Assembly (NCBI RefSeq): GCF_001281175.1
Contig: NZ_KQ440395.1
Span: 1-63,245 of the forward strand
Source of the DNA: Apilactobacillus apinorum
GTDB lineage: Bacteria; Bacillota; Bacilli; Lactobacillales; Lactobacillaceae
Length of the DNA: 63,245 bases
Direction: 5' to 3'
Positions 35,298 to 58,489 of this stretch are shown here, in pieces (the first letter of the stretch is position 1; the number at the start of each line of letters is the position of its first letter). The translations under genes were made by a program, and so were the position numbers. The notes beneath the pieces are model-generated. The model was not told the DNA's origin, searched no databases, and was given only the letters and a program-made list of their open reading frames with translations.

Positions 35298-35370
35298 TGG
35301 GCAGTCAGGGGATCGAACCCTGGACCCACGGATTAAGAGTCCGTTGCTCTGCCAGCTGAGCTAACTGCCC
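35298..35370 (-). tRNA. tRNA-Lys (anticodon CTT)
   Basis: On the minus strand, GGGCAGT pairs with ACTGCCC for the acceptor stem. The D arm is GCTC-loop-GAGC, the anticodon stem ACGGA/TCCGT encloses CTCTTAA, and the T arm CAGGG/CCCTG has the loop TTCGATC. The anticodon CTT decodes AAG. The discriminator is A, and CCA is not encoded. The promoter TTGCAA-N17-TATTAT lies at 35433-35405. Confidence 0.97.
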
Positions 35371-49592: not shown

Positions 49593-50933
49593 TTAGATAT
49601 TTTTCCAAGTGTCATGACCGATTGATGGGAATAGGTGCACGTTTCTTTCGATTTCTAGTGGAGTCATTTTCATGTTAACGGCTGGGACAATCATGTCGAT
49701 TGCGTTATCAGCTTGGTCAGAAATTTCAGTGAAACCAACTAGACGGTGTTCTTTATCAAAGATGTAGGCATTCTTAACAACTGGTTCTTTAGTGATTTGT
49801 CTGAACCAAGTGTTAGTTGAGTCATGTTCTTCAACAGTGTATTCGTCACTAGCGTTTGCTTCATCAACAGTCACACCCATTTGACTGATACGAGGTGAAG
49901 TAAATACAACTGATGGAATAGCTGGGAAGTCGATTGGTTGATCAGTTTCTCCGGCAAATAGATGCTTTAGGTATTGTGATTCGAAAGTAGCGGTAGGAGT
50001 TAGGTTTGGTTGACCAGTAGCAGCAACGTCACCAGAAGCATAAATGTTTTCAACTGAAGTTTGTAGGTATTCGTTAACTTCAATTCCTTTCTTATCGTCA
50101 AACTTAACACCGACTTCTTCTAGTCCCATGTTGTGAACCATTGGAACACGACCAGAAGCATCTAGAATGTAATCAACAGTTAGTTGTTGGTTGTCAGCGT
50201 AAGTAACAGTGTATTCGTCACCGTTTTGTTCAAATGCACGTAAGCCAGAGTTTTCAACAAACTTGATACCTGATTTTTTCATTTCGTCCATTAGTATTTG
50301 TACGTATGGTTGGTAGAAAGGACGTAGTGCTTTGTCACCGTGCATGAACATAGTAACGTCTGCACCAGCTTCGTTAGCCATAGTAGCAAATTCCATCGCA
50401 ATGTAACCAGTACCGATTATAGCCATACGTTTTGGCATGTCTTCTAGTTCCATGAAGTCTTGTGAATCATGTGATAATTCAGTACCTTCAATTTCAACTT
50501 TGTGTGGAGTTAAACCAGTAGCAATAACGATTTTATCTGAAGTAACGTGTTCACCATTGATTTCTAGAGTGTGAGTATCAGTGAATTTAGCAAAACCATG
50601 GATAACATCCATGCCTAGGCTCTTCATAGTAGCTTCACGGTCTACTTTGATTGGTAGAATTCCTTCACGTTTGTGTTTGATGTTTTCTTTCCAGTTAAGC
50701 TTAGTATCGCCTTCAACGATATCTTTCATTCTTCTTTGAGTCTTAGCCAAAGTAACAGGTCCGTCTAAAGTGATTTTGGCGTTACAACCCCAGTTAGGGC
50801 AAGTTCCACCAACAGCAACTGCTTCTACGAAAGCAATTTTGAAACCTTGTTTGCAAAGTGTCTTGGCACCGTCGAAAGCGGCGTGTCCAGATCCGATGTA
50901 AACAACATCGTAATCAAAGTTAGGATTTTTCAT
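49593..50933 (-). CDS. FAD/NAD(P)-dependent disulfide oxidoreductase-like protein (paralogue A)
   Basis: A 446-residue flavoprotein of the glutathione reductase/dihydrolipoamide dehydrogenase superfamily: FAD motif GSGHAAFDGA near 14, redox pair in GGTCPNWGCNAK (CX4C) near 42, NAD(P) motif GTGYIAMEFA near 172, FAD motif ASGDVA near 305 and the dimerisation domain from about 335. GGAGG selects ATG 50933. The C-terminal active-site motif, normally H-P-T with a Glu partner, reads VHLFPSIG here, so the catalytic His is Phe. It may be a non-glutathione reductase with a different proton donor. Confidence 0.88.
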   Translation of the reverse strand: MKNPNFDYDVVYIGSGHAAFDGAKTLCKQGFKIAFVEAVAVGGTCPNWGCNAKITLDGPVTLAKTQRRMKDIVEGDTKLNWKENIKHKREGILPIKVDREATMKSLGMDVIHGFAKFTDTHTLEINGEHVTSDKIVIATGLTPHKVEIEGTELSHDSQDFMELEDMPKRMAIIGTGYIAMEFATMANEAGADVTMFMHGDKALRPFYQPYVQILMDEMKKSGIKFVENSGLRAFEQNGDEYTVTYADNQQLTVDYILDASGRVPMVHNMGLEEVGVKFDDKKGIEVNEYLQTSVENIYASGDVAATGQPNLTPTATFESQYLKHLFAGETDQPIDFPAIPSVVFTSPRISQMGVTVDEANASDEYTVEEHDSTNTWFRQITKEPVVKNAYIFDKEHRLVGFTEISDQADNAIDMIVPAVNMKMTPLEIERNVHLFPSIGHDTWKNI

Positions 50934-51038
50934 AATTAGTAGCCTCCATATTTTTAATGGCATATTTAATTTATTTGTATACTTTAAATTTACATTATTA
51001 TAGGAAAGAACACAAATATATTGACTATGATTTAATTG

Positions 51039-51098: not shown

Positions 51099-52430
51099 TT
51101 ATAGTTGTTGCCATGCATCGCTTCCGATAGTTGGGAATAGGTGCACGATTTTGTTAATTTGTGATTTGTCTAATTGTAAAGCAACGGCTGGTAGAATTGA
51201 ATCAATTACGCTGTCAGCTTCGGGAGAAACTTCAGTTGCACCAACTAAATGGTGTTGTTTGTCAAAAACTAATGTACGTTTGGCGATATGTTCGTTAGTG
51301 ATTGCACGGTACCAATCAGAAGCCATGTCGTGTTCTTCAACAGTGTATTCGTCGCTCTTCTTAGCTTCTTCAACAGAAACACCCACTTGAGCGATACGAG
51401 GGCTGGTAAAGACAACAGTAGGGATGGCTGGGAATTCGATTGGATCAGTAGTTTCACCAGCAAATAAGCTAGTTAGGTATTGTGATTCAAAAATGGCAGT
51501 TGGAGTTAACTTAGGTTGACCAGTAACAGCAACGTCACCAGAAGCGTAAATTCCTTCTACAGAAGTTTGTAGATGGTCATCTACGATAATTCCACGTTCG
51601 TCATATTTAACACCAACTTCGTCTAAACCAATGTTTTCGACGTTTGGAATTCGACCAGTTGCATCTAATGCAAAGTCAGTGAAGATAGGACCGTTGTTAG
51701 TTTCAATAGTCATCTTACATTTTTCGCCATGGAATTCTTTGATTTCAGTGTTTTCAACAAACTTAACACCTTTTTCTTTTAGATCGTTTACGACCTCATC
51801 TACGTATTCTTTGTCAAATTGGCGAAGAGCACGGTCACCATGCATTAACACAGTTACTTCAGATCCTGCTGCATTTGCGATTGTAGCAAATTCCATTGCA
51901 ATATAACCAGAACCGATAATTGCAATGTGTACTGGAAGTTCTTCTAGGTTTAAGAATTCCTTTGAGTCAGATGCCATTTCCTTACCAGGAACATCTAGAC
52001 GGTTAGGACGTAAACCAGTTGCTAACACGATTTTGTCTGCAGAGTAGTTTTTACCATCAACATCGACGGTGTGGTTATCAACTAATTTACCGTAACCGTG
52101 AAGCACGTCGATACCGAATGCTTTTAATCCACCTTCAATTGCACCAGGTAGACCATCGATTACTTTGTGTTTGTTTAACATGTTTTGTGTCCAATCAATT
52201 GAAAGGTCACCTTTAATAATGTTTTTTAGACGTTGTTGAGTTTCTTTTAATTGAACTGGTAAGTCTAACGCAATCTTTCCGTTACAACCCCAGTTAGGAC
52301 AAGTTCCACCGATTTTATCGGCTTCAACAACAGCGACTTTGTATCCTTTAGCGGCTAATGGCATTGCGCCATCAAAAGTACCGTGTCCGGCACCAATGTA
52401 TAATACGTCATAATCAAAACTATTAGTCAT
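51099..52430 (-). CDS. FAD/NAD(P)-dependent disulfide oxidoreductase-like protein (paralogue B)
   Basis: A 443-residue protein collinear with paralogue A and probably an old tandem duplicate: GAGHGTFDGA near 14, GGTCPNWGCNGK near 42, GSGYIAMEFA near 172, ASGDVAVTGQ near 303. I start at ATG 52430 because AAAGGAAATGAT fits it rather than the upstream ATG. The C-terminus reads VHLFPTIGSD, again Phe in place of the catalytic His. It faces a divergent acetoin reductase gene. A redox-stress function is possible, but the substrate is unknown. Confidence 0.88.
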   Translation of the reverse strand: MTNSFDYDVLYIGAGHGTFDGAMPLAAKGYKVAVVEADKIGGTCPNWGCNGKIALDLPVQLKETQQRLKNIIKGDLSIDWTQNMLNKHKVIDGLPGAIEGGLKAFGIDVLHGYGKLVDNHTVDVDGKNYSADKIVLATGLRPNRLDVPGKEMASDSKEFLNLEELPVHIAIIGSGYIAMEFATIANAAGSEVTVLMHGDRALRQFDKEYVDEVVNDLKEKGVKFVENTEIKEFHGEKCKMTIETNNGPIFTDFALDATGRIPNVENIGLDEVGVKYDERGIIVDDHLQTSVEGIYASGDVAVTGQPKLTPTAIFESQYLTSLFAGETTDPIEFPAIPTVVFTSPRIAQVGVSVEEAKKSDEYTVEEHDMASDWYRAITNEHIAKRTLVFDKQHHLVGATEVSPEADSVIDSILPAVALQLDKSQINKIVHLFPTIGSDAWQQL

Positions 52431-52612
52431 ATTTATCATTTCCTTTTCAATGGATATTTAATGAATCATTAATTACTTATAACATAAACTTAGTAACTGA
52501 TTAATTCAAACATTTAGCCTTAGATTAGTTAGTACAAGATTAATAAAAACTTTTAACACAGTTATTATATTATAAAAAAACATAAAAGTAATCTCTTTAA
52601 ATAAACATAAAT

Positions 52613-52655: not shown

Positions 52656-53438
<783 letters not shown>

Positions 53439-53453
53439 AATCATATTATTATA

Positions 53454-53494
53454 TGAAAAAAAGAACCACTTCTAAATGAAGTGGTTCTTTTTTG
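53454..53494 (+). terminator. Intrinsic terminator of butA
   Basis: AAAAAGAACCACTTC / GAAGTGGTTCTTTTTT around TAAAT. Confidence 0.92.
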
Positions 53495-53527
53495 TGAGAT
53501 ATACAAAAACAAACTTTATTTCTTTAA

Positions 53528-53564
53528 CAAAAAAGTACCCCAAAGATAAAATCTTCAAAGTACT
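53528..53564 (-). terminator. Terminator of the tRNA-like RNA
   Basis: On the minus strand AGTACTTTGAAGAT (53564-53551) pairs along all 14 positions with ATCTTTGGGGTACT (53547-53534), using some G-U pairs, around UUU, and is followed by five U. Confidence 0.8.
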
Positions 53565-53572
53565 TTAGTTAG

Positions 53573-53642
53573 TGAGCTGTGATGCTTTGAACACCATCTT
53601 CTCAGCAAAGGACTGAGTGCTTTTACCTTAAGCTAACAGCTC
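53573..53642 (-). ncRNA. Free-standing tRNA-like RNA
   Basis: The 70-nt minus-strand sequence folds as a four-arm cloverleaf: acceptor GAGCTGT/ACAGCTC (7 bp), then TA, D arm GCTT-AAGGTAA-AAGC, A, anticodon arm CTCAG-TCCTTTG-CTGAG, variable AAGAT, T arm GGTG-TTCAAAG-CATC, and unpaired A at the 3' end. U8, A14, G18-G19, A21 and the T loop TTCAAAG agree with tRNA rules. The anticodon loop departs: C33 replaces U33 and U37 replaces a purine, giving CTT at positions 34-36. CCA is not encoded; CTA follows. It has its own promoter and terminator. It may be a diverged tRNA-Lys, a non-translational tRNA or a tRNA-shaped regulatory RNA. Confidence 0.65.
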
Positions 53643-53689
53643 AAAATATTAAGTTTGTCTGTGAGATGTAATATCAAGCGACAAATAAT

Positions 53690-53718
53690 ATTAAACCACA
53701 TTCATAAATTGAATGCAA
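53690..53718 (-). promoter_or_regulatory. Promoter of the tRNA-like RNA
   Basis: On the minus strand TTGCAT (53718-53713), 17 bp, TTTAAT (53695-53690), with an extended -10 TG at 53698-53697. Transcription would begin near 53683, giving a leader of about 40 nt. Confidence 0.7.
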
Positions 53719-53724
53719 GATTTT

Positions 53725-53753
53725 TTGAGAAAAAATTGATTCTCAGCTATAAT
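53725..53753 (+). promoter_or_regulatory. Promoter of the 41-residue protein, divergent from the tRNA-like RNA
   Basis: TTGAGA (53725-53730), 17 bp, TATAAT (53748-53753). TGAGAA..TTCTCA (53726-53745) is an inverted repeat within the spacer. The -35 boxes of the two divergent promoters are only 6 bp apart. Confidence 0.65.
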
Positions 53754-53795
53754 TTAACTAAATCTTTAAAATTAACGATAAGGGGATAGACTCTA

Positions 53796-53921
53796 ATGAA
53801 TTTAATGACTATATTATTCTTTATTTTAGGTTTCATTGCACTATTTATTATTTCTACATTATCAACAATGTTAGTAATATCTTTAAAAAACAAACGCGAA
53901 AAAAACGATCAAAACAAGTAA
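53796..53921 (+). CDS. 41-residue single-helix membrane protein
   Basis: I do not recognise it. The reading frame begins MNLMTILFF, carries one long hydrophobic helix (about 4-29) and ends with a charged tail rich in Lys, Asn and Asp (NKREKNDQNK). AAGGGGAT lies 8 bp before the ATG and a good promoter lies at 53725-53753. No terminator separates it from the downstream AEC permease, which also has its own promoter-like sequence. The form resembles small hydrophobic regulators or toxins, but no antisense RNA overlaps it. Confidence 0.6.
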   Translation: MNLMTILFFILGFIALFIISTLSTMLVISLKNKREKNDQNK

Positions 53922-54061: not shown

Positions 54062-55036
54062 ATGGGAGTATTTATTAACTCAATCCAAAGTGTCCTAGTT
54101 GTTGTTCTAATTATGTTATTAGGATACATCTTAAGAAAAACCGGTTGGTTTGCTGACACTTTTAGTAAAAACATTTCTAAATTAATCAAAAACGTTGCTT
54201 TACCTGCATCAATCTTTGTTGCGGTATTGAGTCGTCTAACTAGAGATAAGCTAGTTAGTTTTGGTAGTTACTTAATCTGGGGAATTATCTCAGTAGTAAT
54301 TGGTTACATTATTGCCTTCATTTTAGTTAAGGTAATGAAAGTTAGAGCTGGTCGTCGTGGTGTATTTATTAACGCCATCGTTAACGCCAACACTATCTTT
54401 ATTGGTTTACCATTAAACATCGCATTGTTCGGTGACAAATCAATGACTTACTTCTTGGTTTACTACATCATTAACACTGTTTCAACTTGGGCATTTGGTG
54501 TCTTCTTGATCAGTAACGATGATCCTACTAAACAAGATCAACCAAAAGAACACCACAAGATTAACTGGAAACAAGTTATTCCAATGCCTCTAGTTGGTTT
54601 CTTGGTTGCTTTAGTATTCTTACTACTAAACATTCCAGTACTACAAGTACCTTTCTTAGCTCAGACTCTAACTTACGTTGGTAGTTTAGTTACTCCATTA
54701 TCACTAATCTACATTGGTATCGTATTAGCTGATGCTGGTTTGAAGAGTATTTCATTCGACCGTGACACTGTTGTTGCTCTACTTGGTCGTTTCGTATTAG
54801 CACCAGTTATCATGATTTCAATCTTAGCTGTTGCTGCTCACGGTGGTGTATCACTACCAGGTATGTTCAACCAAACTATGATTGTTCAATCTGCTACTCC
54901 AATGCTAGCAGTGCTACCAATCTTAGCTGCTGAATCACACGGTGACGTTAAGTACGCAACTAACATTGTTACTACTTCAACTGTATTATTTATCGTAGTT
55001 ATTCCTATCTTAATGACTATCGTTCAATACATCTAA
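54062..55036 (+). CDS. AEC (auxin efflux carrier) family permease
   Basis: A 324-residue membrane protein with about ten helices in two halves (a loop containing DDPTKQDQPKEHHK near 155). The conserved segment NTIFIGLPLNIALFG lies near 110 and ATPMLAVLPILAAE near 280, as in AEC proteins. Members in lactic acid bacteria include malate permeases of the malolactic pathway, but no malolactic enzyme gene is adjacent, so the substrate is open. AGGAGGATT precedes the ATG. Confidence 0.88.
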   Translation: MGVFINSIQSVLVVVLIMLLGYILRKTGWFADTFSKNISKLIKNVALPASIFVAVLSRLTRDKLVSFGSYLIWGIISVVIGYIIAFILVKVMKVRAGRRGVFINAIVNANTIFIGLPLNIALFGDKSMTYFLVYYIINTVSTWAFGVFLISNDDPTKQDQPKEHHKINWKQVIPMPLVGFLVALVFLLLNIPVLQVPFLAQTLTYVGSLVTPLSLIYIGIVLADAGLKSISFDRDTVVALLGRFVLAPVIMISILAVAAHGGVSLPGMFNQTMIVQSATPMLAVLPILAAESHGDVKYATNIVTTSTVLFIVVIPILMTIVQYI

Positions 55037-58211: not shown

Positions 58212-58357
58212 ATAAAAATACCCTCCTACGCGAGAGTAGAAGGGTACACTTGTAATTTGGTTAATTATTTACAATTGGAGTGCGCCAGGCTTCCTTCGCT
58301 AGTGTTAGCTAGATCAGGTTCAATGGGTATTATCTCAGCCTTGCGGCACCCCAGTGG
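58212..58357 (-). promoter_or_regulatory. TPP riboswitch with terminator upstream of tenA
   Basis: On the minus strand the aptamer reads CTGGGGTGC (58354-58346), GGCTGAGATAATACCC (58338-58323), GAACCTGATCTAGCTAACACTAG (split: AACCTGATCTAG and CTAACACTAG) and CGAAGGAAG (58298-58290). It is followed by the hairpin TACCCTTCTAC / GTAGGAGGGTA (about 58245-58219) and TTTTTATT. The arrangement indicates transcription termination when TPP is bound. Confidence 0.95.
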
Positions 58358-58489
58358 ACAGCAGTTATTATTTAATTCATATAATAGTATATCGAATTAT
58401 AGGTTTCAGGTAAACCGTCAATTTAATAAAATCCGAATATAATAGATGTTAAAAGTGTATTTTGTTCGGCATATACAGATGAAGGAAAA

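Follow-up and report, generated by a model that had tools for sequence, protein, structure and literature searches.

Two described RNAs come closest to the one reported here. The non-proteinogenic tRNA-Gly of Staphylococcus aureus keeps a tRNA body, is thought to be spared from translation and supplies glycine for the wall bridge; tRNAs of this type have G18-G19 replaced and carry T-stem pairs expected to weaken binding of EF-Tu, for which 49-65 and 51-63 are named as sites (PMC4052509, excerpt). In Bacillus cereus, tRNA-Other is a tRNA-like RNA outside translation that is able to take lysine, has a Trp anticodon and flanks a pathogenicity island (PMC3399842, excerpt). The division of charged tRNAs between the ribosome and the enzymes that modify wall and lipids has been called unclear, and the question has been raised in particular for the lysyl-lipid synthase MprF (PMC4052509, same excerpt). 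MprF is also important for a related lactobacillus to persist in the inflamed gut of flies (PMC11361745, excerpt).

Here we analyze a gene in a window of 63,245 nucleotides, the whole stretch of Apilactobacillus apinorum DNA that was studied, together with its homologues. Its conservation marks it as a real tRNA-like gene, one found in lactic acid bacteria associated with bees and in some of their relatives. As in the S. aureus tRNA-Gly, the tRNA body is kept, G18-G19 is replaced in 12 of 17 distinct family members, and the T-stem pairs are of the kind expected to weaken EF-Tu binding in 16 of 17 (compared with the excerpt of PMC4052509). The family differs in having CUU and lysine identity instead of glycine and wall-bridge use, in occurring in other bacteria, in an anticodon loop that is itself altered (U37, often C33), and in that the loss of G18-G19 is not found in the window's copy or in the five distinct Apilactobacillus sequences. 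By analogy, then, the family would work like the S. aureus tRNA-Gly without being a member of it. With tRNA-Other it shares the tRNA-like form outside translation and the likely capacity for lysine, but not the anticodon, which is CUU in the family, nor the setting beside a pathogenicity island (PMC3399842, excerpt). Our literature search returned no earlier report of such a tRNA or of a tRNA dedicated to MprF.

The transcription unit

The gene lies on the minus strand, flanked by butA (52665-53438) and an AEC permease gene (54062-55036). A sequence-only reading of this DNA had described it as a free-standing unit, and the coordinates and letters it gave were correct when we read the sequence again. 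A -35 hexamer, TTGCAT (53713..53718), and a -10 hexamer, TTTAAT with a TGG extension (53690..53695), are separated by a 17-nt spacer. They are followed by a 5' leader of about 40 nt (53643..53683), its start placed by the -10 position, a 70-nt tRNA-Lys-like cloverleaf (53573..53642) detected by both ARAGORN and Rfam RF00005, and an intrinsic terminator (53526..53566) made of a hairpin (53566-53532) and a T run.

The predicted terminator is a strong one: its hairpin folds far better than shuffled sequences (z -5.2), and a terminator was found downstream of 20 of the 22 copies scanned (22 of the family's 31 copies were taken in). The promoter held up in one respect and not in another. Taken by itself, its hexamer score is no better than expected by chance in AT-rich DNA of this kind (p 0.46 against shuffles), where promoter-like sites are frequent; p fell below 0.05 for 8 of 22 copies scanned. 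Among 16 Apilactobacillus genomes, 14 nevertheless conserve both hexamers and their spacing although the letters of the spacer vary, and the -35 hexamer is also seen, by eye, in both genomes of a second genus, g32. Support for the predicted promoter is thus comparative and does not come from the score of the hexamers alone. In a published RNA-seq study of Apilactobacillus kunkeei, reads from tRNAs were detected, but the analyses there covered mRNA only (PMC10496945, excerpt). Folding of the cloverleaf stands at z -2.8, and at just -1.8 once the leader is added.

Three further features were noted in the window. A 41-codon open reading frame (53796-53921, plus strand) between the RNA gene and the AEC permease gene starts a few bases 3' of AAGGGG and has one hydrophobic stretch; it may encode a small membrane protein. 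A TPP riboswitch (58272-58363, minus strand; Rfam RF00059, 58.5 bits) lies near thiamine-like genes, and two related tandem genes (49593-50963 and 51099-52439, minus strand) resemble, by eye, flavoprotein disulfide reductases.

The cloverleaf and its departures from tRNA rules

ARAGORN calls the cloverleaf tRNA-Lys(ctt), and the Infernal check proposed by the sequence-only reading gave 41.8 bits against RF00005 (cut-off 29). This is the lowest score of the 57 RF00005 matches above cut-off in the window's genome, and a fast-filter Rfam scan of the whole window missed it. No Rfam family other than tRNA reached its gathering score within 53450-53800. Against our family model R2 (below), which this same sequence helped to build, it scores 85.2 bits. 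The cloverleaf is thereby supported, but the claim that all four stems pair is weaker for the T arm (53581..53595), with a 4-bp stem GGUG/CAUC including one G-U pair and a loop UUCAAAG: it has four safe pairs, and one A could belong to the T stem or to the acceptor stem. The D loop, AAGGUAA (53623..53629), has A14 A15 and G18 G19.

The anticodon loop, UCCUUUG (53606..53612), places C33 at 53611, the anticodon CUU at 53610-53608 and U37 at 53607. Both departures that the earlier reading had seen in it are real: U33 and A or G at 37 are found in all 56 other ARAGORN tRNAs of this genome, so that the hallmarks of a translating elongator, U33 and a purine at 37, are missing here. The marks of a lysine isoacceptor, A73 (at 53573), U35 and U36, are present in 17 of 17 distinct members. 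Lysine identity is carried by A73 together with the anticodon (PMC9976931, excerpt), and the description of the gene as lysine-type is well supported by its sequence. The gene does not encode a CCA end, but as just 2 of 56 ordinary tRNAs of this genome do (by eye), its absence is uninformative here.

The anticodon had been likened to that of the ordinary tRNA-Lys(CUU) gene (35298..35370, minus strand; ARAGORN and Rfam scan). The anticodons do agree, but by global alignment the nearest tRNA in the genome is tRNA-Lys(UUU), not CUU. Identity of the Apilactobacillus members to both lysine tRNAs is 0.43-0.52, a range understated by misplacement of the T arm in the alignment. The six distinct members of another genus, g26, are closest to the ordinary tRNA-Lys(CUU) of the window's genome (identity 0.69-0.75) and look derived from tRNA-Lys(CUU), its likely parent. 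What sets the family apart from it is U37, A15-U48 instead of G15-C48, a variable region ending in AGAU, and a weak T stem. Separately, six Apilactobacillus genomes (G206, G297, G284, G223, G255 and G023) gave no ordinary tRNA-Lys(CUU) with a tRNA-Lys(UUU) query, a possible loss of that gene.

Distribution of the family

Homologues were found in related species, 31 copies in all (17 distinct) from 29 genomes and five of the 40 Lactobacillaceae genera sampled. In a pattern search of 397 Lactobacillaceae genomes, the element was present in 16 of 16 Apilactobacillus (g1) and 2 of 2 g32 genomes; a match in G394 was set aside as false. A covariance model, R1, built on seven distinct sequences and run on 295 Lactobacillales genomes, added a member in a third genus, g26 (62.7 bits), the next matches reaching at most 43.1 bits and three among them being known tRNA-Lys(UUU) genes. 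A looser pattern matched 21 of the 397 genomes: the 18 known, two g26 and one false (G238). Model R2 was built on nine sequences, and these 9 of the 17 members match it by construction; across the 397 genomes it separated members (at least 63.6 bits) from the next matches (at most 59.8). Members came from 9 of 10 g26 genomes, one g34 genome with two copies, and one g36 genome. R2 also found a second copy in a g32 genome, G067 (L262, 5451-5524), which is diverged, has the loop CUCUUUA and lies within a tRNA array, flanked by tRNA-His and tRNA-Gln (by eye). Class-wide, among 215 genomes, R2 gave nothing above 58.9 bits outside the window's genome. Searches over 40 genomes used strict filters.

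The best matches below the members, in G353 and G163, both have A37 and were set aside. The one at L260 in G353 (genus g12) is a tRNA-Lys(CUU)-like gene whose loop, CCCUUAA, combines C33 with A37; another R2 match lies about 390 bases from it.

Fourteen of 32 contig loci checked carry the element (13 from Apilactobacillus or kin, plus Sy-1), and ARAGORN reports a tRNA at 13 of these 14 and at none of the 18 others. Gene neighborhoods shift from member to member, the unit standing alone and usually with a terminator. We considered a mobile origin, as a phage or plasmid tRNA, and set it aside, since viral contigs held no exact pattern match and plasmids no blastn match.

Covariation and invariant positions

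Covarying stem changes in relatives had been named beforehand as a test of the gene. Among nine distinct sequences, 10 of the 16 stem pairs counted show compensatory double changes, including all five anticodon-stem pairs, and 99.3% of stem cells pair; none of 500 shuffles did as well in pairing and double changes. Of five measures taken, one, the count of further pair types, did not rise above shuffles in either covariation count and was ordinary in the nine-sequence one (247 of 500). The T stem was excluded from the 16 pairs because MAFFT had misplaced the Apilactobacillus T arm in alignments A1 and A2, a fault that also accounts for the unpaired T-stem cells of the earlier count. While the stems turn over, all 17 distinct members share U8 A9, G10 C11 U12, A14 A15, A21, C34 U35 U36 U37 and A73, and 16 of them have U48.

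Loss of features used in translation

All 17 distinct members have U37 and 9 have C33. As the purine at 37 is replaced by U, and t6A is formed on A37, this modification is impossible. G18-G19 survives only in Apilactobacillus (5 of 17 sequences, by eye). Position 55 is no longer U in 4 of 17 members, and is also not U in 1 of 47 ordinary tRNAs. Among the pairs 49-65, 50-64 and 51-63, no more than one is Watson-Crick in 16 of 17 members, with the Apilactobacillus members, whose T stem has 4 bp, scored as lacking the first T-stem pair. By comparison, 43 of the 47 distinct ordinary tRNAs of the window's genome have two or three such pairs and 4 have at most one. The pair 50-64 is an EF-Tu contact as well, and two of the four ordinary exceptions look like initiator tRNA-Met, which likewise avoids EF-Tu. 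That the family is not for decoding is well supported by its sequences, and the weak T stem, together with the S. aureus tRNA-Gly precedent (PMC4052509, excerpt), makes escape from EF-Tu likely.

Co-occurrence with MprF

We searched genomes of the member genera, and one genome each from 35 other genera, for MprF (PF09924). All 29 carriers of the tRNA have it, with no interruption in the domain matched: the 18 genomes of Apilactobacillus and g32, plus 11 of the 12 other genomes from member genera. The only g26 genome, and the only genome of any member genus, without a family member is G188, where mprF is broken by an in-frame stop roughly 113 codons short of its end. The best R2 match in G188, which is listed as 99% complete, is a tRNA-Lys(UUU) (54.9 bits). 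This co-loss gives a Fisher p of 0.033 among 30 genomes with kinship ignored, and is a single event; the association at genus level gives p 0.071, again with kinship ignored. Of the 35 genera outside the family, each represented by a single genome, 19 have MprF without the family tRNA and 16 lack MprF, showing that MprF does not need this tRNA. Nor does an operon tie the two genes together: in every one of the 29 carriers they are on separate contigs or are separated by 61 kb or more.

We built an MprF tree from the 31 proteins whose loci were at hand, with G188 represented by its first piece. The member genera form one side of a branch with support 100/98. G188 branches first inside g26. Of the 16 member rows it has the greatest length, 0.76, with none of the rest exceeding 0.44, though two rows from outside the member genera surpass it (0.81 and 1.09). 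Together with the G188 pattern, the tree fits one gain and one joint loss of tRNA and MprF. Two published points weigh against the link: MprF has been proposed to recognize mainly the aminoacyl group (PMC4052509, excerpt), and deletion of the B. cereus pseudo-tRNA, an RNA that takes lysine poorly, left lipid lysylation unchanged (PMC3399842, excerpt). That the family tRNA feeds MprF is our best current guess, drawn from one co-loss and from co-occurrence.

Discussion

Several other explanations would account for part of what we see. A tRNA-shaped regulatory RNA, acting as B. cereus tRNA-Other may, by pairing with RNA or binding a protein instead of by being charged, would suit a free-standing unit, mostly with a terminator, whose neighborhoods shift, as well as the broken tRNA rules; a larger regulatory RNA has been proposed to contain tRNA-Other (PMC3399842, excerpt). 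We consider this rather unlikely, because the lysine identity positions persist in 17 of 17 members although the stems turn over, because the second G067 copy sits in a tRNA array (by eye), and because the leader, among Apilactobacillus genomes, is less conserved than the cloverleaf. Another reading would have the loop's UCCUUU pair with AAAGGA ribosome binding sites and block translation. The match, first noticed in the sequence-only reading, holds in 9 of 17 members, the window's copy among them; it is the same in Apilactobacillus, both g32 and two g26 genomes while all five anticodon-stem pairs have changed, and it looked strong as long as three genera were known. It weakened when R2 added members with U33: 8 of 17 carry UUCUUU or CUCUUU, only CUU and U37 are invariant family-wide, and an invariant CUUU is what a tRNA-Lys(CUU) with U37 would retain. 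We judge such an anti-Shine-Dalgarno RNA quite improbable. A role as effector of a lysine T-box was rejected, as none of 26 T-box hits in the window's genome (E up to 1; 11 above cut-off) precedes a lysine gene, the genes, named by eye, being those for ValS, LeuS, PheS, AsnS, TyrS, ArgS, SerS, IleS, HisS, TrpS, AlaS, ThrS, GlyQ, MetE, GlyA and transporters. The specifier triplets, too, were taken by eye.

CUU and A73 in 17 of 17 members could also belong to an unusual yet working tRNA-Lys for AAG codons, and 6 of 18 genomes yielded no ordinary CUU tRNA, a weak point in its favor since the query was tRNA-Lys(UUU). Against decoding stand U37 in every member, C33 in 9 of 17 where 0 of 56 ordinary tRNAs have either, the weak T stem, and the ordinary tRNA-Lys(CUU) present in the window's own genome; we find this reading improbable. 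A decaying, functionless tRNA gene would explain the lowest score of 57 tRNA matches, but the sequence-only reading had already argued against simple decay, and rightly so. The gene is present in 16 of 16 Apilactobacillus genomes, its cloverleaf is identical in 11 of the 16 while the flanks drift, and compensatory changes run across genera, and for these reasons we reject decay as scarcely credible.

We favor, at roughly even chances, a non-proteinogenic, EF-Tu-evading tRNA-Lys that gives lysine outside translation, probably to MprF. A donor of lysine for wall or lipid modification was among the roles first suggested, and it is the best supported of them, with the lysine marks and U37 alike in 17 of 17 members; among the points against it, Apilactobacillus, the window's own genus, keeps G18-G19. 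From the features, conservation, covariation and MprF co-occurrence described above, we infer the following course for expression, charging, EF-Tu escape and the MprF link. A tRNA-Lys gene would have been duplicated in an ancestor of the five genera, which group together. The duplicate would have retained the marks read by LysRS (A73, U35, U36) and given up features required by the ribosome and EF-Tu: the purine at 37, often U33 and G18-G19, and firm pairs at 49-65, 50-64 and 51-63. The copy, driven by a promoter of its own, would be transcribed as a single gene, then trimmed, given a CCA end, as most tRNAs of this genome must be, and charged with lysine, which would then pass to a tRNA-dependent transferase, most likely MprF, and so onto membrane lipids. 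In its strictest form, in which the tRNA is MprF's own supply, gained once in the five-genus ancestor and lost with MprF once, the proposal is possible but tentative.

A gene finder (ARAGORN) lists this gene as just another tRNA-Lys. A conserved lysine tRNA that bears non-decoding and likely EF-Tu-escaping features, in bacteria that have MprF, would make the division of charged tRNAs between ribosome and wall or lipid modification a question that removal of a gene can test.
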